Below, in pieces: positions 16,780-27,034 of a stretch of DNA of 64,000 nt. The stretch's first letter is position 1. Each line of letters begins with the position of its first letter. Both the position numbers and the translations under genes were made by a program. The DNA is taken from contig NZ_JAJSSH010000001.1 in assembly GCF_021403115.1 (NCBI RefSeq), positions 62,001 through 126,000 of the forward strand, given 5' to 3'. This DNA comes from Sphingobium sufflavum. Lineage in GTDB: Bacteria > Pseudomonadota > Alphaproteobacteria > Sphingomonadales > Sphingomonadaceae. The notes under the pieces were generated by a model. That model saw only the letters and a program-made list of their open reading frames with translations, was not told the DNA's origin and searched no databases.

Positions 16780-17712
16780 ATGGACGGGGCACGCCGCATG
16801 ATCGTGGCGCTGACCGGCGCGACCGGCTTCCTGGGCGGGGCGGTACTGGAGCGGCTGATCGCGGACGGCCATGGCGTGCGCGCGCTGACCCGGCGACCGC
16901 AGCCGGAGCGGCCGGGCGTGGCGTGGATCGCGGGCGATCTGGCGGACGAACCGGCGCTGGCCAGCCTCGTGGCGGGAACGGACGCCGTCATCCATGTCGC
17001 GGGCGCGGTCAATGTGCCGGGCCGTGCCGCCTTCTTCGCCGCCAATGCGGAGGGCACGCGGGTGCTGGTCGAGCAGGCGCAGGCGGCGGGCGTGACGCGC
17101 TTCGTCCTCGTCTCCTCGCTTTCCGCGCGCGAACCGCAGCTCTCCGACTATGGCTGGTCCAAGCGGGAAGGGGAGCGGATGGTGGAGGCCGGCACCCTCG
17201 ACTGGACGATCGTGCGTCCGCCCGCCATCTATGGTCCCGGCGACCGGGAGATGCTGGAGATGTTCCAGATGGCGGCGCGTGGCCTCGTCATGCTGCCCCC
17301 CACTGGCCGGTTGTCGGTGATCCATGCCGACGATCTGGCCGGGCTGCTGGTGCTGCTGGCCGGGGATCGGTCCGGCCTGTCGACCGGGGCGACCTATGAG
17401 GTCGATGACGGCGCGCCGGGCGGGTTCAGCCATGTCGATTTCGCCCATGCGCTGGGCCGGGCGGTCGGACGGCGGGCCTTTGCCCTGTCGCTGCCCCGCC
17501 TCGCGCTGATGCTGGGCGCGCGCGTCGATGGCCTGTTGCGCGGCAAGGGGGCCAAGCTGACCGCCGACCGAGTCCGCTATTTCTGCCATCCCGACTGGGT
17601 CGCCGCGCCGGACCGGCGGGTACCGGAAAGCCTGTGGCGCGCCGGGATCGCCGTGGAACAGGGCCTGACCGCCACCGCCGCCGCCTATAGGGCGAAGGGC
17701 TGGCTGAAATAG
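16780..17712 (+). CDS. NAD(P)-dependent SDR, candidate ceramide/3-ketosphinganine reductase (CerR-like)
   Basis: 310-residue extended SDR. Dinucleotide motif TGATGFLG at residues 12-19, catalytic Ser about 112-113 and YGWSK (Tyr124, Lys128). In Caulobacter the genes for Spt, its ACP and an SDR of this type (CerR) form one cluster needed for ceramide synthesis. This gene stands immediately upstream of acp-spt on the same strand, so reduction of the 3-keto group of the sphingoid base or ceramide is the likely reaction. That role is inferred from context, since epimerase-like SDRs are diverse. An ATG at 16798 is an alternative start. It begins five bases after the proB stop. Confidence 0.72.
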   Translation: MDGARRMIVALTGATGFLGGAVLERLIADGHGVRALTRRPQPERPGVAWIAGDLADEPALASLVAGTDAVIHVAGAVNVPGRAAFFAANAEGTRVLVEQAQAAGVTRFVLVSSLSAREPQLSDYGWSKREGERMVEAGTLDWTIVRPPAIYGPGDREMLEMFQMAARGLVMLPPTGRLSVIHADDLAGLLVLLAGDRSGLSTGATYEVDDGAPGGFSHVDFAHALGRAVGRRAFALSLPRLALMLGARVDGLLRGKGAKLTADRVRYFCHPDWVAAPDRRVPESLWRAGIAVEQGLTATAAAYRAKGWLK

Positions 17713-17837
17713 GCTTCTGTCGCGACGGGTCTTCAAACGCCGCCCGTTCCAGACTATTGCCCGATTGACGCCGCAATCGCCTGCCATGGCGAAACCGGGG
17801 CAAGGATCGCCCTCCCATAAGAAAGAGATTCCGTCGC

Positions 17838-18086
17838 ATGACCGACCGCCAGAGCATTTTCGACAGCGTGACCGCCCAGATCGCGCCGTTCAACAAGAAG
17901 GGTGCGACGCTGAGCGACAGCACCACCTTTGCCGGCGACCTCGAATGGGACAGCCTGACCGTCATGGATTTCGTCGCGGCGATCGAGGATGAATTCGACA
18001 TCATCATCACCATGAACATGCAGGCGGAGATCGAGACGGTCGGCCAGTTGGTCGATGCCGTCGCCAAGCTCCAGGCGGAAGGCTGA
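17838..18086 (+). CDS. Acyl carrier protein of the sphingolipid cluster
   Basis: 82-residue acyl carrier protein. The phosphopantetheine site is Ser39 in LEWDSLTVMDF, differing from the DSLD of the fatty-acid AcpP, which marks a specialised ACP. Placed seven bases upstream of spt, it is expected to present the acyl chain to serine palmitoyltransferase, as shown for the equivalent ACP in Caulobacter. A good Shine-Dalgarno (AAGAAAGAGA) precedes the ATG. Transcription may start in the 125-base gap after the SDR gene. Confidence 0.87.
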   Translation: MTDRQSIFDSVTAQIAPFNKKGATLSDSTTFAGDLEWDSLTVMDFVAAIEDEFDIIITMNMQAEIETVGQLVDAVAKLQAEG

Positions 18087-18093
18087 CCGGCCC

Positions 18094-19356
18094 ATGAGCG
18101 ACGCCATCGAAACCGCCGCCGATGCCCACACCCCCGCGGAGACGCCGGGCGCACGCGACCTCTTCTCCAAGTTCGACGCGCTCATCAACGAGCGTGAGGC
18201 GATATTGGCGGCGGGCGTGCGCGATCCGTTCGGCATCGTGATGGACGAGGTGAAGTCCCCCACCCTCGCGGTCATCAAGGGCAAGGACACGATCCTGCTC
18301 GGCACCTATAATTACATGGGCATGACCTTCGACCCGGACGTGGTGGCGGCGGGCAAGAAGGCGCTGGACGATTTCGGCGCGGGCACGACCGGCAGCCGCT
18401 GCCTCAACGGCACCTATCAGGGCCATATGGAGGTCGAGGACGCGCTGAAGGATTTCTATGGCACGTCGGGCGCCATGGTCTTCTCCACCGGGTACCAGGC
18501 CAATCTGGGCATGATCTCCACGTTGGCGGGCAAGGGCGACTATGTCATCCTCGACGCGGACAGCCATGCCTCCATCTATGATGGCTGTTTCCTGGGCGAT
18601 GCAGAAATCGTGCGATTCCGCCACAACAGCGTCGAGGATCTGGACAAGCGCCTCGGCCGCCTGCCCAAGGATGCGCAGAAGCTGGTGGTGCTGGAAGGCG
18701 TCTATTCCATGCTGGGCGATGTCGCGCCCCTGCCCGCCATGGTCGCGGCGGTGCGCAAGCATCCCAATTGCATGATCCTGGTGGACGAGGCGCATGGCAT
18801 GGGCTTTTTCGGCCCCAACGGTCGGGGCGTCTATGAGGAGCAGGGCGTCGAGGGCGATGTCGACTTCATCGTCGGCACCTTCTCCAAGAGCGTCGGCACG
18901 GTCGGCGGCTTCTGCGTCTCCAACCATCCGAAGTTCGAAGTGCTGCGCCTCGTCTGCCGTCCCTATGTCTTCACCGCATCGCTGCCGCCCAGCGTGGTGG
19001 CGACCGCCGCTACCTCCATCCGCAAGCTGATGGGCGCGGGCGAGAAGCGGGCGCGGCTGTGGCGCAACAGCAAGACCCTGCATGGCGGCTTGCGCGAACT
19101 GGGCTTCACGCTGGGCACGGAAACGCCGCAGTCGGCGATCATCGCCGTCATCCTGACCGACCAGACGCAGGCCATCGGCATGTGGCAGGCGCTGCTGGAA
19201 CTGGGCCTGTACGTCAACATGGCGCGTCCCCCTGCGACTCCGGCGGGAACTTTCCTGCTGCGCTGCTCATTGTGCGCGGAACATTCGGAAGAGCAGGTCG
19301 GCCAGATTTTGGGCATTTTCGCTGCGGCAGGCCGTGCCGTCGGCGTGATTGTGTAA
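18094..19356 (+). CDS. spt: Serine palmitoyltransferase
   Basis: PLP-dependent alpha-oxoamine synthase condensing L-serine with a long-chain acyl thioester to 3-ketodihydrosphingosine, the committed step of sphingolipid synthesis. Length 420, identical to the Sphingomonas paucimobilis enzyme. Key residues are in the same positions: His159 (stacks on PLP), Asp231 and His234 in LVDEAHGMGF, Lys265 in GTFSKSVG, Arg378 in NMARPP and Arg390. Cytoplasmic and homodimeric by analogy, with no membrane anchor. Start at 18094 (MSDAIE) rather than the in-frame ATG at 18055 inside the ACP gene. Confidence 0.95.
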   Translation: MSDAIETAADAHTPAETPGARDLFSKFDALINEREAILAAGVRDPFGIVMDEVKSPTLAVIKGKDTILLGTYNYMGMTFDPDVVAAGKKALDDFGAGTTGSRCLNGTYQGHMEVEDALKDFYGTSGAMVFSTGYQANLGMISTLAGKGDYVILDADSHASIYDGCFLGDAEIVRFRHNSVEDLDKRLGRLPKDAQKLVVLEGVYSMLGDVAPLPAMVAAVRKHPNCMILVDEAHGMGFFGPNGRGVYEEQGVEGDVDFIVGTFSKSVGTVGGFCVSNHPKFEVLRLVCRPYVFTASLPPSVVATAATSIRKLMGAGEKRARLWRNSKTLHGGLRELGFTLGTETPQSAIIAVILTDQTQAIGMWQALLELGLYVNMARPPATPAGTFLLRCSLCAEHSEEQVGQILGIFAAAGRAVGVIV

Positions 19357-19428
19357 ATTCGGGACGATTTGCAGCGTCATTTGGAAACCGATCTTTCCCC
19401 GGCATGGGCATTGGGTTAATACCGGCGC

Positions 19429-21507
19429 ATGCTGGGGTTAACCCAAAGCCAAGAAAAAGGGTCGGACGACACCATCGACGATCTGCCGCAATGGCGCCGG
19501 GTGATTCCGGTGGCGCTCGGCCTGTGCCTGGCATTTGCCCTCGCGCTGCTGTTCGTGCTGGCCAATCGCGCCGCCGACGACCGGGAGGATGCGCTGGGCA
19601 ACCAGCGGCGCAGCTATGAAGTCATCGCCATCGCCCGCAACCTGGAAGGCACGGTGGCGCGCGCCGAATCCCTGCTCGCGCGCTATGTCGTCAGCGTCGA
19701 CGCCAAGGACGGGCAACGGTATAGCGACCAGTGGCGGCTGGCGGGAACGCTGATCGAAAATCTGCGTCGTTCGTCCCGCGACGACCCGGACAAGCTGCGC
19801 TACATCGGCCTGCTGCGCGACAGCTATGCCGCGCGCGGCAAGACTCTGAACGATATTGCGCTGCGCACCACCTATGACCAGCGGCTCGGTGCGCTGGGCC
19901 GGCTGTACGAGGCGAACCGGACGCGCGACGCCGACCGCATCCAGCGCATCCTGACCGTCATCATCGGCCATGAGATGAAGCGGCTGAACGAACGCAGCAC
20001 GCTGCTCGACCGGTCGACGATGCGCGCGGACCGGCTGGCGGGCAGCTATGGGCTGGTCGGTGTCGTACTGCTGGTCGCGGCGCTGGTCGCGCTGTGGGTC
20101 GCCAACAGCGCCTTTACCGAGCGGCGCTATGCCCGGCGGCTGGCCGATTCGGAGGCGCGACGGGTCGATCATCTCGAACTGGCGGTGCAGAATCGCACGC
20201 GCGAACTGGAGGTGGCGAACGGCCGCCTGCGCACGGAGATGGAGGAACGCGCCCAGGCCGAGGAAAGCCTGCGCCAGTTGCACAAGATGGAAGCGGTGGG
20301 CCAGCTCACCGGCGGCATCGCGCATGATTTCAACAATATGCTGGCGGTGGTGATCGGCGGGCTGGAACTGGCGCGACGGCGGATCAGCGGCCGGGGCGAC
20401 ACCGGCGGCGCGACGACCAATGTGGGGACGAGCGGCGTGGGGACGGGCGGCAAGAGCGAGCATGGCCGCGACACCGACGACGCCGTGCGCCATATCGACA
20501 ATGCCATGGAAGGCGCGAACCGCGCCGCATCGCTGACCCGGCGGCTGCTCGCCTTTGCGCGCGCCGAACCGCTGCTGCCCGCAGAGGTGGACGCCAACCA
20601 GATGATCCAGGGCATGTCCGAACTGATCGACCGGACCATCGGCGACCAGATCCACATCGTCATGGAGCCGGGGGCCGAGGACTGGCGGTTGTGGGCCGAC
20701 CGGCACCAGCTGGAGAATGCGCTGCTCAACCTGTGCGTCAACGCGCGCGATGCGATGGACGGCAAGGGCACCATCACCCTGTCGAGCGGGCAGGTGACCT
20801 TGCGACCCGGCGAAATCAACGACTGCCCCGGCGGCGATTATGTGCGCCTGTCGGTGCGCGACACCGGCCATGGCATGACGCCGGACGTCCTCTCCCGCGT
20901 GTTCGAACCCTTTTTCACCACCAAGCCGGTGGGCAAGGGCACCGGACTGGGACTGAGCCAGGTGTTCGGCTATATCGGCAGTTGCGGCGGCGAAATCCGC
21001 ATCCTGTCGAAGCCGGAACAGGGGACGGAGGTGCAGATCTTCCTGCCCCGCAGCCAGCGCAGCGGCGAACGGGAAGCCTCCCGTCTGCTGACCGAGGCCG
21101 CGATGGCCCCCGCCGCGCCGCGCCGGTCGGTGTTCGTGGTGGAGGACGACCCGCGCGTGCTGGCCGCCACGGTCGCCGCGCTGGAGGAACTGGGTCATCA
21201 CAGCGTCAGTTGCGACCATCCCGCGCAGGCCGCCGACCTGCTGGCCCAATATCCCGGCACCGACATCATCCTGACCGACGTGCAGATGCCGGAAATGACC
21301 GGGCCGGAGATGATCGCCCAGATGCGGGCCCGGGGCATCGCGCTGCCCGTCCTGTTCGTCACTGGCTTTGCGGGCGACGATGCGGAGGCCGGGCTGCTGG
21401 ACAATGAGCATGTGCTGCGCAAGCCCTTCACCCTCGCCCAGCTGGACCGCAAGATCGCCGAGGCATCCAGCGCGCCCGCGAGGGGCCATAAGGAAGCGGC
21501 CGCCTGA
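19429..21507 (+). CDS. Orphan hybrid sensor histidine kinase with CHASE3-like sensor
   Basis: 692-residue inner-membrane kinase. TM1 is about residues 25-46 and TM2 207-226; the periplasmic loop between them (about 160 residues, helical) resembles CHASE3. A coiled coil (250-285) leads to the kinase: H-box with His299 in GGIAHDFNNML, N-box in LENALLNLCVNARDAM, DTGHGM and GTGLGLS. A C-terminal receiver has its phospho-acceptor Asp617 in TDVQMPEMTG. A Gly/Thr-rich stretch at 321-346 interrupts the dimerisation helices. No response regulator is adjacent. Its position between spt and lptF suggests envelope or sphingolipid control, which is inference. Confidence 0.85.
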   Translation: MLGLTQSQEKGSDDTIDDLPQWRRVIPVALGLCLAFALALLFVLANRAADDREDALGNQRRSYEVIAIARNLEGTVARAESLLARYVVSVDAKDGQRYSDQWRLAGTLIENLRRSSRDDPDKLRYIGLLRDSYAARGKTLNDIALRTTYDQRLGALGRLYEANRTRDADRIQRILTVIIGHEMKRLNERSTLLDRSTMRADRLAGSYGLVGVVLLVAALVALWVANSAFTERRYARRLADSEARRVDHLELAVQNRTRELEVANGRLRTEMEERAQAEESLRQLHKMEAVGQLTGGIAHDFNNMLAVVIGGLELARRRISGRGDTGGATTNVGTSGVGTGGKSEHGRDTDDAVRHIDNAMEGANRAASLTRRLLAFARAEPLLPAEVDANQMIQGMSELIDRTIGDQIHIVMEPGAEDWRLWADRHQLENALLNLCVNARDAMDGKGTITLSSGQVTLRPGEINDCPGGDYVRLSVRDTGHGMTPDVLSRVFEPFFTTKPVGKGTGLGLSQVFGYIGSCGGEIRILSKPEQGTEVQIFLPRSQRSGEREASRLLTEAAMAPAAPRRSVFVVEDDPRVLAATVAALEELGHHSVSCDHPAQAADLLAQYPGTDIILTDVQMPEMTGPEMIAQMRARGIALPVLFVTGFAGDDAEAGLLDNEHVLRKPFTLAQLDRKIAEASSAPARGHKEAAA

Positions 21508-21732
21508 CCCGTGCCTCCGCCGCCCCGTGTGGTGACGGTTGTCGGGAATGGACCGGATGGATGATGCGATGGGCGGAGGCTCGCGAATCCTTGATCCTTG
21601 CGTGTCGGCGCATTTTCCGCATGACCTTGCCCCAGTCGGGCGCTAGACCCCGGCCATGACGCGCGTTGGCGACCATCGGACAAGCGGGGCGAGCAGCCCG
21701 GCAATGGAGCGACGCCGGACGGGAGGCCCCTG

Positions 21733-22932
21733 TTGACCGCCATCGACCGCTATATGCTGCGCCTGATCGCGGTGCCCCTGTTCGGCAGCCTGCTGATCTC
21801 CGCCATGCTGCTGGTGCTGGACCGCATGCGCCGCTTGTTCGACTTTGTCGCAACGGAGGGCGGGCCGGTCAGCGCGGTGTGGCGGATGCTGGCCAACCTG
21901 CTGCCCGAATATCTGGGTCTGGGCATCCCCATCGGCCTGATGCTGGGCGTGCTGCTGGCGTTTCGCAAGATCGCCTTGTCGTCGGAACTGGACGTGTTTC
22001 GCGCCGTCGGCCTCAGCTATGGCCGCTTGCTGCGCGTGCCCTATATGTACACCATCCTGCTGGCGGTGCTGAACCTGGGCATCGTCGGCTTCCTCCAGCC
22101 CTATAGCCGCTACGCCTATGAGGGGCTGCGCTTCGAACTGCGCACCGGCGCGCTGGGTGCGTCGATCAAGGTCGGCGAGTTCACCCGGCTGGGCGAGGGC
22201 ATGACCATCCGCATCGAGAATAGCGCGGAGGAGGGCCGGCGCCTGTCGGGCATCTTCGCCCGTGTCGCGACGCAGGATGGCAAATCGCTGGCGGTGACCG
22301 CGTCGCGCGGGCAGTTTCTGGCGACGGACGATCCCGACACCATCATCCTGCGCCTGTCGGACGGCCTGCTGATCCAGAACGCGCCCGGCTATCGCTCGCC
22401 GCGCACGCTCAGCTTCTCCAGCCACGACCTGCCGATCGAACTGCCCAAGATCGACAATTTCCGCACCCGCGGCGACGGCGACCAGGAACTGACCCTGCCC
22501 GAACTGTTTCGCGAAGGCATGCGGGCCGGGGCGAGCCAGGAGGACCGCAACCTGGCCTGGTCCAATTTCCATTATCGCATCGTGGAAGTGGCGATGATGT
22601 TCCTGCTGCCGCTGGCGGCCATCGCCTTTGCCATACCGCCCAAGCGCTCCACATCCGCGCTGGGCGTGTTCCTGTCCATCGTGATGATCGTGACCTATCA
22701 CAAGATCAACCAATATGGGCAGTCGGTCGGCGCGCTGGGCATCGTCAACCCGATCCTGGCGCTGTGGGGACCGTTCCTGATCTTCGGCGGCCTGATCCTG
22801 TGGATGTACCATATCACCGCCCATGTGCCCGGCGGCCAGCCGATCGGCGCGCTGGAACGGCAATTCTCCAAGCTGCTCGGTGTCTTCCTGCGCCTGTTCC
22901 GGGGCAGGCGGCGCGCGGTTGGGACGGAATAG
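21733..22932 (+). CDS. lptF: LPS export permease LptF (probable sphingolipid transporter here)
   Basis: 399-residue inner-membrane permease of the YjgP/YjgQ family. There are three N-terminal and three C-terminal membrane helices around a periplasmic beta-jellyroll (about residues 125-270). Family features: LDRMRRLFDFV near TM1, GLGIPIGLMLGVLLAFRKIA, and the C-terminal FHYRIVEVAMMFLLPLAAIAFA. LptF and LptG with ATPase LptB extract lipid from the inner membrane and feed the Lpt bridge. Start is TTG at 21733 with GGGAGG upstream; an ATG at 21754 is an alternative. Followed by lptG after 12 bases. Confidence 0.9.
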   Translation: MTAIDRYMLRLIAVPLFGSLLISAMLLVLDRMRRLFDFVATEGGPVSAVWRMLANLLPEYLGLGIPIGLMLGVLLAFRKIALSSELDVFRAVGLSYGRLLRVPYMYTILLAVLNLGIVGFLQPYSRYAYEGLRFELRTGALGASIKVGEFTRLGEGMTIRIENSAEEGRRLSGIFARVATQDGKSLAVTASRGQFLATDDPDTIILRLSDGLLIQNAPGYRSPRTLSFSSHDLPIELPKIDNFRTRGDGDQELTLPELFREGMRAGASQEDRNLAWSNFHYRIVEVAMMFLLPLAAIAFAIPPKRSTSALGVFLSIVMIVTYHKINQYGQSVGALGIVNPILALWGPFLIFGGLILWMYHITAHVPGGQPIGALERQFSKLLGVFLRLFRGRRRAVGTE

Positions 22933-22944
22933 GGGCTTTCGGTC

Positions 22945-24039
22945 ATGCAGTTCAGCTTCTTTCCCTCGCGCGGCCTTGCCATCTACATGGGCAAGACATT
23001 CCTGACCCGCTGCGTCGCCATGCTGGCCATGCTGGTGCTGGTGCTCCAGATCCTCGACCTGCTGAGCGAGGCGGGGCATGTGCTGGCCCATCCCGGCAAT
23101 GGCGAGGCGGAGCTGTGGCGCTATGTCTCGCTGCGCGTGCCGCAGATCATCCAGACCTTCCTGCCCTTTGCGGTGTTGCTGGGCACGCTCATCACCCTGA
23201 CCGCGCTGAACGCCAACAGCGAGGTGATCTCGATGAAGGCGGCGGGCCTGTCCGCGCACCAGATACTGGCGCCGCTGGTGCTGGTGTCGGCGGCCATCGC
23301 GGTCATCAGCTTCACCTTCAACGAGCGGATCGTGGTCCGTTCCGTCGCCGCGCTGGAGGCATGGGAGGCGGCGGGTTTCGGCACGGTGCCGCCGGACAGC
23401 GGGGTGAAATCCAACGTCTGGGTCCGGGACGGCGACGACCTGTTCCACGCCGATTTCATCGCGGGCCGGGGCAATGCGGTCACGCTGCGCAACATCACCA
23501 TCTATGACCGGGCGGGCGGCAATCTGGTCGCGACGATGCAGGCGCCGCGCGGGCGGCGGGACGGCAATGCCTGGCGGCTGGAGGATGCGCGGCGGTTCGA
23601 CGTGGCGCGCGGCAAGGTGGAGCGACTGGGCAGCGTGCTGGTCGCGCCCGACATCCGCCCCGACCAGTTCACCCTGGCCAGCGTCGAGCCAGAAAGCCTG
23701 TCCTATTGGGAACTCGGCCCCGCCATCGCCGAGTTGAAGGCCGCTGGTCGCCCCACCGCCGCGCTGGAGGCCGCGCAATGGCACAAGATCGCCGGGCCTT
23801 TGTCGGCGGTGCTGATGCCGCTGCTGGGCGCGGTGGCGGCGTTCGGCGTCGCCCGGTCGGGCAAGCTGTTCGTACGCGCGGTAATCGGCATGGCATTGGG
23901 CTTCGGATTTTTCGTCGCGGATAATTTCGCGCTGGCGATGGGCGATCTGGGGGCCTACCCGCCGTTCCTGGCCGCGTGGGCGCCGTTCCTGCTGTTCCTG
24001 CTGGTCGGTGAGACGGTGCTGGTGCAGACCGAGGAATAG
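22945..24039 (+). CDS. lptG: LPS export permease LptG (probable sphingolipid transporter here)
   Basis: 364-residue partner of LptF with the same fold. TM1 region IYMGKTFLTRCVAMLAMLVL, then DLLSEAGHV and LPQIIQTFLPFAVLLGTLITL-like helices, a periplasmic domain at about 100-260 and closing helices GPLSAVLMPLLGAVAAFGV onwards. Known function in LPS bacteria: half of the LptB2FG transporter. Here it is encoded with sphingolipid genes in an organism group that lacks LPS, so its cargo is probably glycosphingolipid (inference). It is co-transcribed with lptF. Confidence 0.9.
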   Translation: MQFSFFPSRGLAIYMGKTFLTRCVAMLAMLVLVLQILDLLSEAGHVLAHPGNGEAELWRYVSLRVPQIIQTFLPFAVLLGTLITLTALNANSEVISMKAAGLSAHQILAPLVLVSAAIAVISFTFNERIVVRSVAALEAWEAAGFGTVPPDSGVKSNVWVRDGDDLFHADFIAGRGNAVTLRNITIYDRAGGNLVATMQAPRGRRDGNAWRLEDARRFDVARGKVERLGSVLVAPDIRPDQFTLASVEPESLSYWELGPAIAELKAAGRPTAALEAAQWHKIAGPLSAVLMPLLGAVAAFGVARSGKLFVRAVIGMALGFGFFVADNFALAMGDLGAYPPFLAAWAPFLLFLLVGETVLVQTEE

Positions 24040-24096
24040 GCGGAGTCTGCCGACACAGGAGCCGCCTTTACCGGGATGGCGATAGAGAGACCCACA

Positions 24097-24172
24097 ACCC
24101 GGACCTGATCCGGGTGATTCCTTCAAACAATTGAACAGCACAATCCCGCACCCGATCCGGGATGACGGAGAA
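24097..24172. repeat. Pair of CCCGG-type palindromic repeats after lptG
   Basis: ACCCGGA (24097-24103) pairs with TCCGGGT (24109-24115) across a five-base loop. A second, similar unit with CCGATCCGGGATGACGG follows near 24150-24172. Both resemble the unit at 10831-10853. They lie between the convergent lptG and desaturase genes and may act as a bidirectional terminator or REP-like repeat. Confidence 0.55.
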
Positions 24173-24185
24173 TCGTCCCGCCCGA

Positions 24186-25307
24186 TCAGGCCGACGGCTG
24201 CTCCGCCACCTGTGCCGCGGGGCGAACGCCCATCGTGCTGCGCGCCAGTCGCGCCACCAGCGGGAAGAGGCCACCATGGTTCGCCGGGTGATAGGAGGAT
24301 TCCGGTCCCAGAGTCGTCGACAGGCGGCGGTGCGCGGCGGGGAGGGCGTGATAGGGGACGCTGGGCAGCAGGTGGTGCAACGCATGATAGCGCAGGCCGA
24401 CCGGCGCCCACAGTTCGGGCAGCAGGCCGGGCGGCGGCACGTTGACCGAGTCCAGATATTGCTCCGTCACGCTGATCGCATCGCCGTCATTCTCCCACAG
24501 ATGCGCGACGAGAGTGCGCACCTGGTTCAGCACCATCACGCCCGACTGCACAGCCAGGATGATGAGGAAAGCGCGCAGCGGCAGGATGCCGGTCGCGACC
24601 ATGGCCAGCAGGGCGATGGCGAAAAGGCTGCACGCGGCCTCCTGCGCCAGCCAGATGCGACGAAACGCCCCCTCCGGCGCGCGACGGCGATAGGCGGGGT
24701 TGATCGACATGGCGGAGAAGGAGGCGATATTCTTTGCCCGAACCGCCGGAATGACGAGGCCGAGCGGCGTCAGCACCGCGAACCGGAACAGCACGCCGAT
24801 GGGCGCCAGCGCGGAGATGAGCACGAACAGCGGCAACGTCCACGGCTTCATCAACGCTAGCGGCAGATATTCCGGGTCTTGTGCCGTGCCATAGCGGGTG
24901 CGGGCGTGATGCTGCGTATGGACATTCTCATACAGGAAGGACGGCACCAGCATCGGCACGCCGACCAGCGCGTTCCAGCCGAAGCGGAAGCCGGGCAGGT
25001 CGCTATGCTTGATATGGGTCAGTTCATGGATGAAGCTGCCCGCGCGATACAGCGCCAGCACCGCCACAAGGGCGCAGGCCAGCGCCGCCCATGGCGCGGC
25101 GATCAGGATCGCGCCTGCCAGCGCCGCATAGCCCAGCACCGCCGAACCGACCATGTCGGCCCAGTAGATGGCGGGATCGGGACGACCAAGGTCGCGCGTC
25201 AGTTCCACCGCGGCGCGCAGCATGGCGTCGTCGTCGCGCTTGGCCGCCCGCCGTGGCGGGTTGGCGGCGGTCTGGATTGGTTCGGATATGCCCATGATGT
25301 CAGCCAT
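24186..25307 (-). CDS. Membrane fatty acid desaturase
   Basis: 373-residue integral-membrane di-iron desaturase or hydroxylase. Three histidine boxes are seen: HELTH (94-98, followed by IKH), HTQHH (130-134) and HALHH (308-312). Hydrophobic segments lie at about 52-88, 112-126, 158-185 and 225-262. Substrate unknown. Because it is encoded between lptG and the putative ceramide N-acyltransferase, desaturation or hydroxylation of sphingoid bases or amide-linked acyl chains is a reasonable guess; ordinary acyl-lipid desaturation is the alternative. ATG at 25307, with a second candidate at 25295. Confidence 0.83.
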   Translation of the reverse strand: MADIMGISEPIQTAANPPRRAAKRDDDAMLRAAVELTRDLGRPDPAIYWADMVGSAVLGYAALAGAILIAAPWAALACALVAVLALYRAGSFIHELTHIKHSDLPGFRFGWNALVGVPMLVPSFLYENVHTQHHARTRYGTAQDPEYLPLALMKPWTLPLFVLISALAPIGVLFRFAVLTPLGLVIPAVRAKNIASFSAMSINPAYRRRAPEGAFRRIWLAQEAACSLFAIALLAMVATGILPLRAFLIILAVQSGVMVLNQVRTLVAHLWENDGDAISVTEQYLDSVNVPPPGLLPELWAPVGLRYHALHHLLPSVPYHALPAAHRRLSTTLGPESSYHPANHGGLFPLVARLARSTMGVRPAAQVAEQPSA

Positions 25308-25403
25308 ACCCCCAGATAGTGGCCATATCGTGGCGTTGCCACCCCCGGATGACCACAGCTTGACAGGCGGCCTCTGATTCTGGTCCGCTATGTCTCGCCC
25401 GCC

Positions 25404-25676
25404 CTATTTCTCGCCGAGCGCCGCGTCGATCATGAAGCGCCAGGTGTTGGCCGCGTCGCTTTCCAGCGCGATGCCCGCCTCCGCCGGATTGACGTGCCGG
25501 ATGATTTCGGCCCCGGCCTCCTTCATCCGCTGGTCGGGGTCGCGCAGGGACGCGATCATCGCCCGCGCCGCATCCCGGTATATTTTCCGCAGCGGTTCGC
25601 AGTCGGGATCGGTCCACTCCCATTCGGGTTGGGCGGATGCATGCATGGCCTGTGCGGCGCGTTCGATCGGGGTCAT
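25404..25676 (-). CDS. Small conserved-looking protein of unknown function
   Basis: 90-residue cytoplasmic protein starting MTPIERAAQAMHASAQPEW. It is acidic and helical, with IYRDAARAMIASLRDPDQRM and a C-terminal FMIDAALGEK. No signal peptide, membrane segment or known catalytic motif. The ATG at 25676 is chosen over 25880, which adds 68 Arg/Ser-rich residues overlapping the divergent promoter region. It lies upstream of the desaturase, same strand. I do not recognise a function. Confidence 0.6.
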   Translation of the reverse strand: MTPIERAAQAMHASAQPEWEWTDPDCEPLRKIYRDAARAMIASLRDPDQRMKEAGAEIIRHVNPAEAGIALESDAANTWRFMIDAALGEK

Positions 25677-25852
25677 GCCCCCGCATACCGTCCCCGGCCG
25701 GGGGATTACAGCGCAAAGAGCGGGCGCGGCGTCATCGAGCGCCCCGCCGCGGTTTGAGAAGGCCCGCCGGAGACGGTCCACTGGAGACACCCCGCTTGAG
25801 ATGCCCCCGCTTGACAAGGGCGCGCGCCGCCGCGCACTGAACCCGCGCAGCT

Positions 25853-27034
25853 GTGAAAGAGAAAGTCGGACCCTTGGCACATCAGGACATCATCGTCTCC
25901 CCGGTCGAGGGCAAGGCCGACCTGGAGCGTTTCATCGATTTCGCCTGGGAAGCCTATAAGGGCGATCCCAACTGGGTGCCCCCGCTCAAGATGGACGTGC
26001 GCGGCATATTGATGAAGGAGAAGAACCCCTTCTTCGAACATGCCGACGTGCAATATTTCCTGGCCCGCACGGGGGGCAGGATCACCGGCCGGATCAGCGC
26101 CCATATCGACCGGCTGGCGACGTCCATGCCGGCGGAGCAAGGCTTCGGGCCGGGCACGGGAAACTGGGGCCTGTTCGACGCGACCGACCCGGTCAGCGCC
26201 GCCGCCCTGATCGCCGCCGCCGAGGACTGGCTGCGCGCGCGCGGCGTCACCCGCGCCATCGGCCCCATGTCGCTGTCCATCTGGGAGGAGCCGGGCCTGC
26301 TCATCTCCGGCTTCGACCATCCGCCTACCTATATGATGGGCCATCATCGCCCCGAATATCGCGGCTGGATCGAGGCGGCGGGCTATCGCCCGGTCAAGCA
26401 GCTCAACACCTATGACCTCGACATCACCAAACCGTTCCCCAAGCTGATCGAACGGGTCATCGAATCCGGCTTCAAGAATCCGCGCATCCGCATCCGCGAC
26501 GTGGACAAGAGCAAGTTCGACGCGGAAGCGGCGATCATCCTGGCGATCCTGAACGACGCCTGGGGCCGCAACTGGGGCTTCGTGCCGATCACCGACCGGG
26601 AAGTCGCCCATTTCGGCAAGCAGTTGAAGCCCATCGTCTATGAAGACCTCATCCGCATCGCCGAACTGGACGGCGAGCCGGTCGCCTTCATGATGACGCT
26701 GCCCGACCTGAACGAGAAGATCGTGTCGTTCAACGGCAACCTCTTCCCGTTCAACATCGCCAAGCTGATGTGGTGGCTGCGCAAGCCCAAGGTGAAGACG
26801 ATGCGCGTACCCCTGATGGGCGTGCTGCAACGGTTGCAGAGCAGCCGCATGGCCAGCCAGCTCGCCTTCATGCTGATCGAGACGATCCGGCGGACATCGG
26901 TGGCGAAATATGGCGCGACGCGCAGCGAGATCGGTTGGATTCTCGACGATAATCAGGGGATGAACGCCATCGCCAACGCCATCGATAGCCAGGTCAACAA
27001 AAGCTATCTGATCTACGACCGGGTGATCGGCTGA
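25853..27034 (+). CDS. YghO-type N-acyltransferase, candidate bacterial ceramide synthase
   Basis: 393-residue protein of the acyl-CoA N-acyltransferase superfamily. The N-terminal signature is YKGDPNWVPPL, EKNPFFEHADVQYFLAR and TGRISAHID; GPMSLSIWEEPGLLI and GWIEAAGYRPVKQL follow. The C-terminal half repeats a GNAT-like fold ending SYLIYDRVIG. Bacterial ceramide synthase of Caulobacter belongs to this superfamily and is encoded near spt; this gene is 6.5 kb downstream of spt in a lipid neighbourhood. N-acylation of the sphingoid base is therefore proposed (inference). The start is GTG at 25853; a TTG at 25874 (MAHQD) is possible and better placed after AAAGAGAAAG. Confidence 0.65.
   Translation: MKEKVGPLAHQDIIVSPVEGKADLERFIDFAWEAYKGDPNWVPPLKMDVRGILMKEKNPFFEHADVQYFLARTGGRITGRISAHIDRLATSMPAEQGFGPGTGNWGLFDATDPVSAAALIAAAEDWLRARGVTRAIGPMSLSIWEEPGLLISGFDHPPTYMMGHHRPEYRGWIEAAGYRPVKQLNTYDLDITKPFPKLIERVIESGFKNPRIRIRDVDKSKFDAEAAIILAILNDAWGRNWGFVPITDREVAHFGKQLKPIVYEDLIRIAELDGEPVAFMMTLPDLNEKIVSFNGNLFPFNIAKLMWWLRKPKVKTMRVPLMGVLQRLQSSRMASQLAFMLIETIRRTSVAKYGATRSEIGWILDDNQGMNAIANAIDSQVNKSYLIYDRVIG

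Follow-up and report, generated by a model that had tools for sequence, protein, structure and literature searches.

Gene content of the locus

The window analysed here, a stretch of 64,000 nucleotides of the Sphingobium sufflavum genome (assembly GCF_021403115.1, contig NZ_JAJSSH010000001.1, positions 62,001 to 126,000), carries between its positions 16,780 and 27,034 genes for sphingolipid synthesis together with lptF and lptG, whose products belong to the permease family of the lipopolysaccharide (LPS) exporter (Table 1). Sphingomonads bear sphingolipids on their surface in place of LPS. A preliminary description of this region had proposed that the genes form a make-and-ship module, in which serine palmitoyltransferase (Spt), an acyl carrier protein (ACP) and a CerR-like short-chain dehydrogenase/reductase (SDR) contribute to the sphingolipid and LptFG exports it. 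Profile matches bear out that the SDR, ACP, Spt, a histidine kinase, LptF and LptG are all present and all lie on the plus strand. The desaturase and the N-acyltransferase that were said to come after LptG on that strand were both found, but only the N-acyltransferase is co-directional; the desaturase lies on the minus strand. On the genomic comparisons presented below, we consider it probable that the LptFG pair of the window took the place of the LPS exporter and uses a retained Lpt machinery to ship sphingolipid.

Table 1. Coordinates of the genes at the locus, in positions of the window.
Product	Position	Strand	Basis
CerR-like SDR (NAD-dependent epimerase/dehydratase family), presumed oxidised-ceramide reductase	16780..17712	+	Pfam PF01370/PF13460
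Acyl carrier protein (AcpR-like)	17838..18086	+	Pfam PF00550
Serine palmitoyltransferase Spt	18055..19356	+	NF047603, 777.5 bits (cut-off 670)
Hybrid histidine kinase, CHASE3-HisKA-HATPase-REC (C-terminal receiver)	19429..21507	+	Pfam
LptF, sphingolipid-type clade	21733..22932	+	PF03739, 198 bits (cut-off 27.9); trees; D30-R31 is the [DE][KR] motif of the clade
LptG, sphingolipid-type clade	22945..24039	+	PF03739, 256 bits (cut-off 27.9); TIGR04408, 304 bits
Fatty acid desaturase/hydroxylase family protein	24186..25307	-	PF00487, 90.7 bits
CerS-like N-acyltransferase (tandem GNAT)	25853..27034	+	AlphaFold2 model; likeness to YghO; position downstream of LptFG

The Spt of the window passes the curated cut-off of a Rhodobacterial Spt family, and its closest relatives among the named loci are those of a Novosphingobium sp. 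Chol11 record and of Sphingobium species (89-91% identity). LptF scores 229.7 bits with the NCBIfam LptF model, marginally below its cut-off of 230, and the AlphaFold model of LptG has LptG chains as its best Foldseek matches. No Pfam or NCBIfam model reached its cut-off for the last open reading frame (ORF) of the locus. Its AlphaFold2 model (pLDDT 94.1 and pTM 0.90, from a 33-sequence alignment) has tandem-GNAT acyltransferases as its best matches in the PDB, and the protein is 41% identical to Escherichia coli YghO, an acyltransferase listed in the consulted part of PMC9386255 among the genes needed for dihydroceramide.

Lipid A enzymes and the retained Lpt bridge

Genes for lipid A synthesis would, as the preliminary description pointed out, speak against a sphingolipid role of LptFG. 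LpxC (PF03331) had no match in any of 147 genomes of the window's order, the window's genome included, a sample that takes in Kordiimonadales as well as Sphingomonadaceae. The same result (0/147) was obtained for LpxB (PF02684), in a search that was lax rather than strict, given that at E <= 0.001 Bacillus subtilis and Lactococcus lactis also match; the E. coli and Caulobacter controls were positive for both enzymes, and LpxA, LpxD and the remaining lpx genes were not searched. Spt was found in 141 of the 147 genomes and LptFG in 138. The window's genome (4.43 Mb, 99.97% complete) has a single LptFG pair, together with lptD and an lptC-lptA-ABC ATPase-rpoN cluster, in which the ABC ATPase gene is lptB by its position and lptC is represented by one PF06835 match (26.9 bits, cut-off 21). 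LptC copy number was not informative, 37 of 45 genomes having a single PF06835 match, 2 having two and 6 having none. Thus, since LptD (141/147) and lptC-lptA-ATPase persist while both enzymes are unmatched, the Lpt bridge has been kept in bacteria without LpxC or LpxB matches.

Two types of LptFG pairs

A survey of the class comprised 289 genomes, 42 of which contain Spt at E <= 1e-110, and 37 of these 42 lie outside the window's order. Sixteen of the 37 are LpxC-positive and 21 LpxC-negative. Four or five LptFG matches, that is two pairs, are present in 15 of the 16 LpxC-positive genomes, and all 21 LpxC-negative genomes have at most one pair, 19 of them giving two matches and G200 and G378 giving none. 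A single LptD was found in 15 LpxC-positive genomes, the sixteenth (G335) showing two fragments at contig ends, and both LptFG pairs therefore appear to share one LptD. Exactly two LptFG matches were found in 14 of 15 Spt-negative genomes; the other, G163, gave two further, weak matches. The label "LPS-type" for the clade of the pairs of these 15 genomes, for which no LpxC search was made, is our own naming.

A tree of concatenated LptF and LptG sequences was built from 215 loci including the window, of which 41 held no complete pair, leaving 174 pairs, 158 of them distinct. One branch (support 0.999) splits the distinct pairs into 28 that are LPS-type and 130 that are sphingolipid-type. The LPS-type side holds the E. 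coli K-12 pair, all 13 placed pairs of Spt-negative genomes, all eight second pairs that are distant from Spt, and six of the 12 pairs of LpxC-positive genomes that have no Spt close by, the other six being on the sphingolipid-type side. Also on the sphingolipid-type side are the window, every placed pair of its order, all 17 placed pairs of LpxC-negative genomes and all eight Spt-linked pairs of LpxC-positive genomes. Every LpxC-positive, Spt-positive genome with two placed pairs (13/13) has one in each clade; two LpxC-negative genomes (G363 and G430) stayed unplaced, and the LpxC-positive genomes G167 and G335 contributed one pair and none, respectively. In an IQ-TREE analysis of 41 rows the branch between the clades received ultrafast bootstrap and SH-aLRT supports of 100 and 99, and a tree joining the window's order to the LPS-type clade was rejected by the approximately unbiased (AU) test (p-AU 0.00023), for which the groups were named after earlier trees had been seen and in which the E. 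coli row is on a long branch. By its placement in these trees, the LptFG of the window is a member of the PF03739 family outside the LPS-type clade.

The LPS-type site and residue differences between the clades

In alphaproteobacteria with an LPS-type pair, lptF-lptG often sits between pepA and lptD. With the pair in between, the distance from pepA to lptD is 2.4 to 2.7 kb in loci L175, L180, L203, L243, L245 and L255 and wider in L177 and L247; in L174, L179, L181 and L183 pepA adjoins the pair and lptD is outside the piece. In the genome of the window, a gap of 96 bases with nothing in it separates pepA from lptD. A pepA-lptD site without an LptFG domain, with a gap below 400 bases, was found in all 25 loci of the order that were examined, including that of the window's genome. 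Outside the order, LptFG was beside LptD in none of 19 LpxC-negative, Spt-positive loci, 12 of which have pepA adjacent at 57-516 bases and 7 no pepA in the piece. These sites are most simply read as the result of a removal of the LPS-type pair and a takeover by the sphingolipid-type pair.

The two clades also differ in individual residues. The LptG position of E. coli K40, a residue described in the available part of PMC6744409 as contacting the 4'-phosphate of lipid A, is basic (Arg) in 25 of 27 LPS-type alphaproteobacterial pairs versus 1 of 130 distinct sphingolipid-type pairs, and the LptG of the window carries G44 where LPS-type alphaproteobacterial LptG has Arg. In the first transmembrane helix (TM1) of LptF, the positions of E. 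coli Q29-K30 read [DE][KR] in all 130 sphingolipid-type pairs, and the K30 position is basic in just 2 of 27 LPS-type pairs. Two candidate comparisons were dropped: a fixed arginine difference at LptF R305, where a better alignment with E. coli (R292) shows arginine in both clades, and the matching of K34, K40 and K41 from a HMMER pairwise alignment, which disagrees with the multiple alignments that were used.

These results bear on whether the LptFG of the window could be an ordinary, promiscuous LPS exporter that was left after the loss of LPS and now moves sphingolipid by default, without specialisation. Such an origin would account for the shared fold and machinery, and E. coli LptG tolerates K40E/K41E according to the consulted part of PMC5548808. 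The rejection of the window's order from the LPS-type clade, the empty LPS-type site and the retention of two pairs in nearly all LpxC-positive, Spt-positive genomes all argue against it, and we regard it as very improbable.

Conservation of the Spt-LptFG neighbourhood

The preliminary description had called for a comparison of gene order across sphingomonads, and this shows that the arrangement is not confined to a single genome. Among the matches listed, Spt lies at most 12 kb upstream of LptFG and on the same strand in all 57 genomes outside the window's family (family f1, taken as Sphingomonadaceae) that have both genes on one contig. Five other genomes outside the family had the genes on different contigs, 19 genomes (4 of the family and 15 others) had no listed place for LptFG, six of them having no match at all, and six were left out of the count, namely G040 and G111, which have LptFG but no Spt, and G014, G095, G113 and G115, which are in neither list. 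The neighbourhood was also found in named records of Kordiimonadales and Emcibacter. Among 80 named Spt loci, 62 of which extend at least 9.5 kb downstream of Spt, 45 have both LptF and LptG in the piece, and in 43 of these 45 the pair is downstream of Spt on the same strand.

Forty loci of the order that had been chosen as linked, 20 from the window's family and 20 from other families, were annotated. Nineteen of the 20 loci of other families preserve the order ACP-Spt-LptF-LptG-CerS, the remaining piece stopping at a contig end; so do 19 of the 20 from the window's family if the strand of the Spt block is ignored. ACP is directly upstream of Spt in 40/40 and CerS downstream of LptFG in 38/40 of the linked loci, and in other families a CerR-like SDR precedes ACP-Spt in 19/20. 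In 13 of the 20 loci of the window's family the desaturase gene, in antisense orientation, separates LptG from CerS. The histidine kinase stands beside Spt in 12 of these 20 loci (plus one short partial match) and in none of the 20 of other families, and it is thus a family-level addition. In the annotated loci of other families, the Spt-LptF or LptG-CerS gap contains genes of DAGK-like, CDP-alcohol transferase-like, flippase-like or fatty acid hydroxylase type, as would be expected for lipid-tailoring steps. At L166:14576-15358 a PF04116 hydroxylase is located between LptG and CerS, where the window's family has the PF00487 desaturase; perhaps the two are non-homologous enzymes for one step. 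In eight genomes (G276, G166, G251, G370, G408, G314, G008 and G027) the LptF and LptG matches share one open frame of about 750-825 amino acids, suggesting either read-through or a fused LptF-LptG.

Within the window's own family the picture is different. Among the matches listed, Spt and LptFG are linked in 29 of 60 genomes (27 on the same strand), far apart on one contig in 19 and on different contigs in 12, which counts against a necessary coupling. Adjacency is therefore not required. A single transcript is also unlikely, because the desaturase is antisense and the CerR gene follows ObgE and ProB. The make-and-ship neighbourhood itself is common across the order. One could also view it as a historical arrangement without functional meaning, given that about half of the window's family has the genes dispersed and given the description, in the available part of PMC11324152, of the genes of S. 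wittichii and Z. mobilis as scattered. We find this hardly credible, since the arrangement was kept in every resolvable genome of the other families as well as in Kordiimonadales and Emcibacter records, and since a separately recruited LptFG adjoins spt in E. coli.

A second lptG-lptF pair beside spt in E. coli

In E. coli BL21(DE3) (NC_012971), a second lptG-lptF pair lies after, and convergent to, the genes fatty acyl-AMP ligase-SDR-ACP-spt. The segment with spt and this pair lies at NC_012971.2:2990834-2997066 (L301:25835-32067); its 6.2 kb are covered to at least 80% in 4,014 of 5,426 complete E. coli genomes. With a support of 1.0, the second pair falls beside E. coli's own LptFG and not in the sphingolipid-type clade of alphaproteobacteria. 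It was therefore recruited separately, and so, outside alphaproteobacteria, clade and cargo do not necessarily go together. The K-12 LptG residues K34, D37, K40, K41, R133 and R136 correspond to N, N, D, D, Q and S in the second LptG. The BL21(DE3) cluster (aasR-epi-acpR-spt, and yghO) resembles that of the window in bringing together Spt, ACP, an SDR (35% identical to the CerR-like SDR of the window), a CerS homologue and an LptFG pair, and differs from it in that its LptFG pair is convergent to spt and separately recruited. PMC9386255 deals with BL21 aasR, acpR, spt, epi and yghO; the words "lptF" and "transport" are absent from its text.

Relation to known systems

The closest described counterpart is the Caulobacter crescentus cluster CC_1168-CC_1152, which includes LptC2, LptF2 and LptG2, suggested in PMC11324152 as movers of phosphosphingolipids. 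The consulted sections of that paper state that transport was not investigated there, and we found no transport test of a role of LptF2G2 in sphingolipid transport in the literature. The proposal of a sphingolipid role for LptF2G2 is thus not new for Caulobacter. The relative gene order reported there, cerR-acp-spt ... lptF-lptG ... cerS, is that of the window, and the role proposed for LptFG is the same; this comparison rests on the published gene order and on genomes of the same layout, the sequences of CC_1155 and CC_1156 not having been compared. There are also differences. Caulobacter LptF2G2 are second versions beside the LPS ones, whereas the window's genome has the sphingolipid-type pair only and no LpxC or LpxB match; Caulobacter has LptC2, whereas no second LptC was found in the window's genome beyond its one PF06835 match; and the cluster of the window contains a histidine kinase and an antisense desaturase. 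In their available parts, PMC11324152 and PMC11087976 describe the route by which sphingolipids get to the outer membrane as not known, the latter adding that no flippase or transporter had been identified.

The three enzyme families of the bacterial ceramide pathway Spt-bCerS-CerR, described for Caulobacter in the consulted part of PMC11087976, are those of the window. With the LptB2FGC LPS exporter of E. coli, Shigella and Klebsiella, as far as it is described in the available sections of PMC6744409 and PMC5548808, the window shares the permease family, the LptG fold, adjacent lptF-lptG genes and Lpt partner genes; unlike that exporter, its pair belongs to another clade, its genome has no LpxC or LpxB match, the K40 position of its LptG is not basic and TM1 of its LptF has [DE][KR]. 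In the open-licence literature, mostly judged by title and the start of the abstract, we recognised no further treatment of the clade split, of the empty site or of sphingomonad LptFG.

Proposed role of the LptFG pair and points that weigh against it

What can be read directly from the DNA is gene content and order, the lack of LpxC and LpxB matches, two clades, copy numbers, an empty site and residue changes. From these we infer that the cargo is sphingolipid and that LptB, LptC, LptA and LptD serve the pair of the window. The claim of the preliminary description that LptFG serves sphingolipid rather than LPS thereby gains support from genomic evidence of several kinds, because the order gave no LpxC or LpxB match, the LptFG clade that follows Spt is a separate one, there is one pair per outer-membrane lipid, and the LPS-type site is empty. 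In the process that we propose, Spt with ACP, CerS and CerR would make oxidised and then reduced ceramide. An ancestor would have held both lipids and both LptFG pairs; lipid A synthesis and the LPS-type lptFG would have been lost, and the sphingolipid-type pair would have stayed. This pair would work with LptB, LptC, LptA and LptD, encoded elsewhere in the genome, extracting the finished sphingolipid from the inner membrane for delivery to the outer membrane by way of the Lpt bridge.

Another possibility is that the pair carries a different outer-membrane lipid or a lipid-linked glycan of the same lineages, its adjacency to Spt reflecting shared regulation or history only. The cargo of LptFG is not readable from sequence, Spt and LptFG are, among the matches listed, unlinked in 31 of the 60 genomes of the window's family, and some loci have a PF01943 flippase-like gene and PF01066 genes in between. 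However, the sphingolipid-type clade was found in Spt-positive genomes only, the placed pairs of Spt-negative genomes all being LPS-type, and of the six sphingolipid-type loci of LpxC-positive genomes without a nearby Spt, four hold a CerS match (L182, L184, L244 and L246). We therefore consider another cargo unlikely.

Besides the dispersal in the window's family, several observations weigh against a sphingolipid-shipping pair. Firstly, six genomes of the order have Spt but no LptFG match (G009, G022, G033, G037 and G042, all five of family f2, and G045), and outside the order G200 and G378 (family f62), which are Spt-positive, have no match to LptFG, LptD or LpxC; for the latter two, either a different surface route or missed genes may be responsible. 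G009, G022, G033, G037 and G042 have Spt and LptD, and their assemblies are fragmented and 66-95% complete, so that either incompleteness or real loss may apply. G299, of the same family as G200 and G378, has LptFG and LptD and no LpxC. Secondly, G209 (L203), although LpxC-positive and Spt-positive, holds only an LPS-type pair (2 LptFG matches). Thirdly, a phylogenetically controlled pair test on the LptD tree yielded only two independent pairs on well-supported branches, which is too few independent LPS losses; in that test L255 was labelled LPS-bearing though LpxC was not searched in its genome. Fourthly, the single fitness link seen is from Caulobacter, where the consulted part of PMC11324152 gives a cofitness of 0.60 between CC_1156 (lptF2) and the sphingolipid gene CC_1159, and the cargo of the window's pair is itself deduced from sequence. 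Finally, the residue differences are open to other explanations. As K40E/K41E was reported in PMC5548808, in the part available, to be without effect on growth of E. coli, loss of K40 does not prove that the cargo has changed; reversal of K34 or R136 kills E. coli, and LPS-type alphaproteobacterial LptG, too, lacks a basic residue at these positions; and 59 of 99 pairs of the order have a basic residue at the K41 position. Clade-specific residues can be explained by descent alone.

Replacement of the LPS exporter by a sphingolipid-shipping pair would fit a more general scheme, towards which we lean with some reserve. Lpt would be a lipid-neutral bridge whose cargo is set by LptFG, and alphaproteobacteria would have two ancient, cargo-specific types of LptFG that can share one LptD, as genomes with both pairs show a single LptD. 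On loss of LPS only the LPS-type pair would be deleted, leaving pepA next to lptD, and sphingolipid would take the whole bridge. E. coli would have recruited a copy of its own LptFG beside spt to the same end, losing the same contacts (K34N, K40D, K41D and R136S). The present analysis names a likely sphingolipid pump and provides a test of cargo at the level of both clades and residues, and it points to lineages without LpxC and LpxB whose outer membrane would depend on the sphingolipid-type pair. Genomes with both pairs, genomes with one pair and an E. coli strain with a second pair are natural experiments by which the question can be put to a direct test. The split of the LptFG family is concealed by the usual annotation "LPS export permease".

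Other features of the locus

The Spt ORF overlaps that of ACP, and the true start of Spt is therefore probably a little downstream of 18055. ObgE and ProB precede the CerR-like SDR on the plus strand, the SDR starting 4 bases past ProB, so that CerR seems to belong to an ObgE-ProB-CerR run and not to an Spt operon. A scan of the window for promoters and terminators was uninformative, giving 4 promoter-like sites (1.7 in shuffled sequences) and 1 terminator-like site (4.8 in shuffled sequences). The desaturase is possibly a ceramide acyl hydroxylase. The kinase resembles CckA-type kinases, with NCBIfam scores far below the cut-off, and it is possible that this CHASE3 hybrid kinase regulates the lipid gene set.

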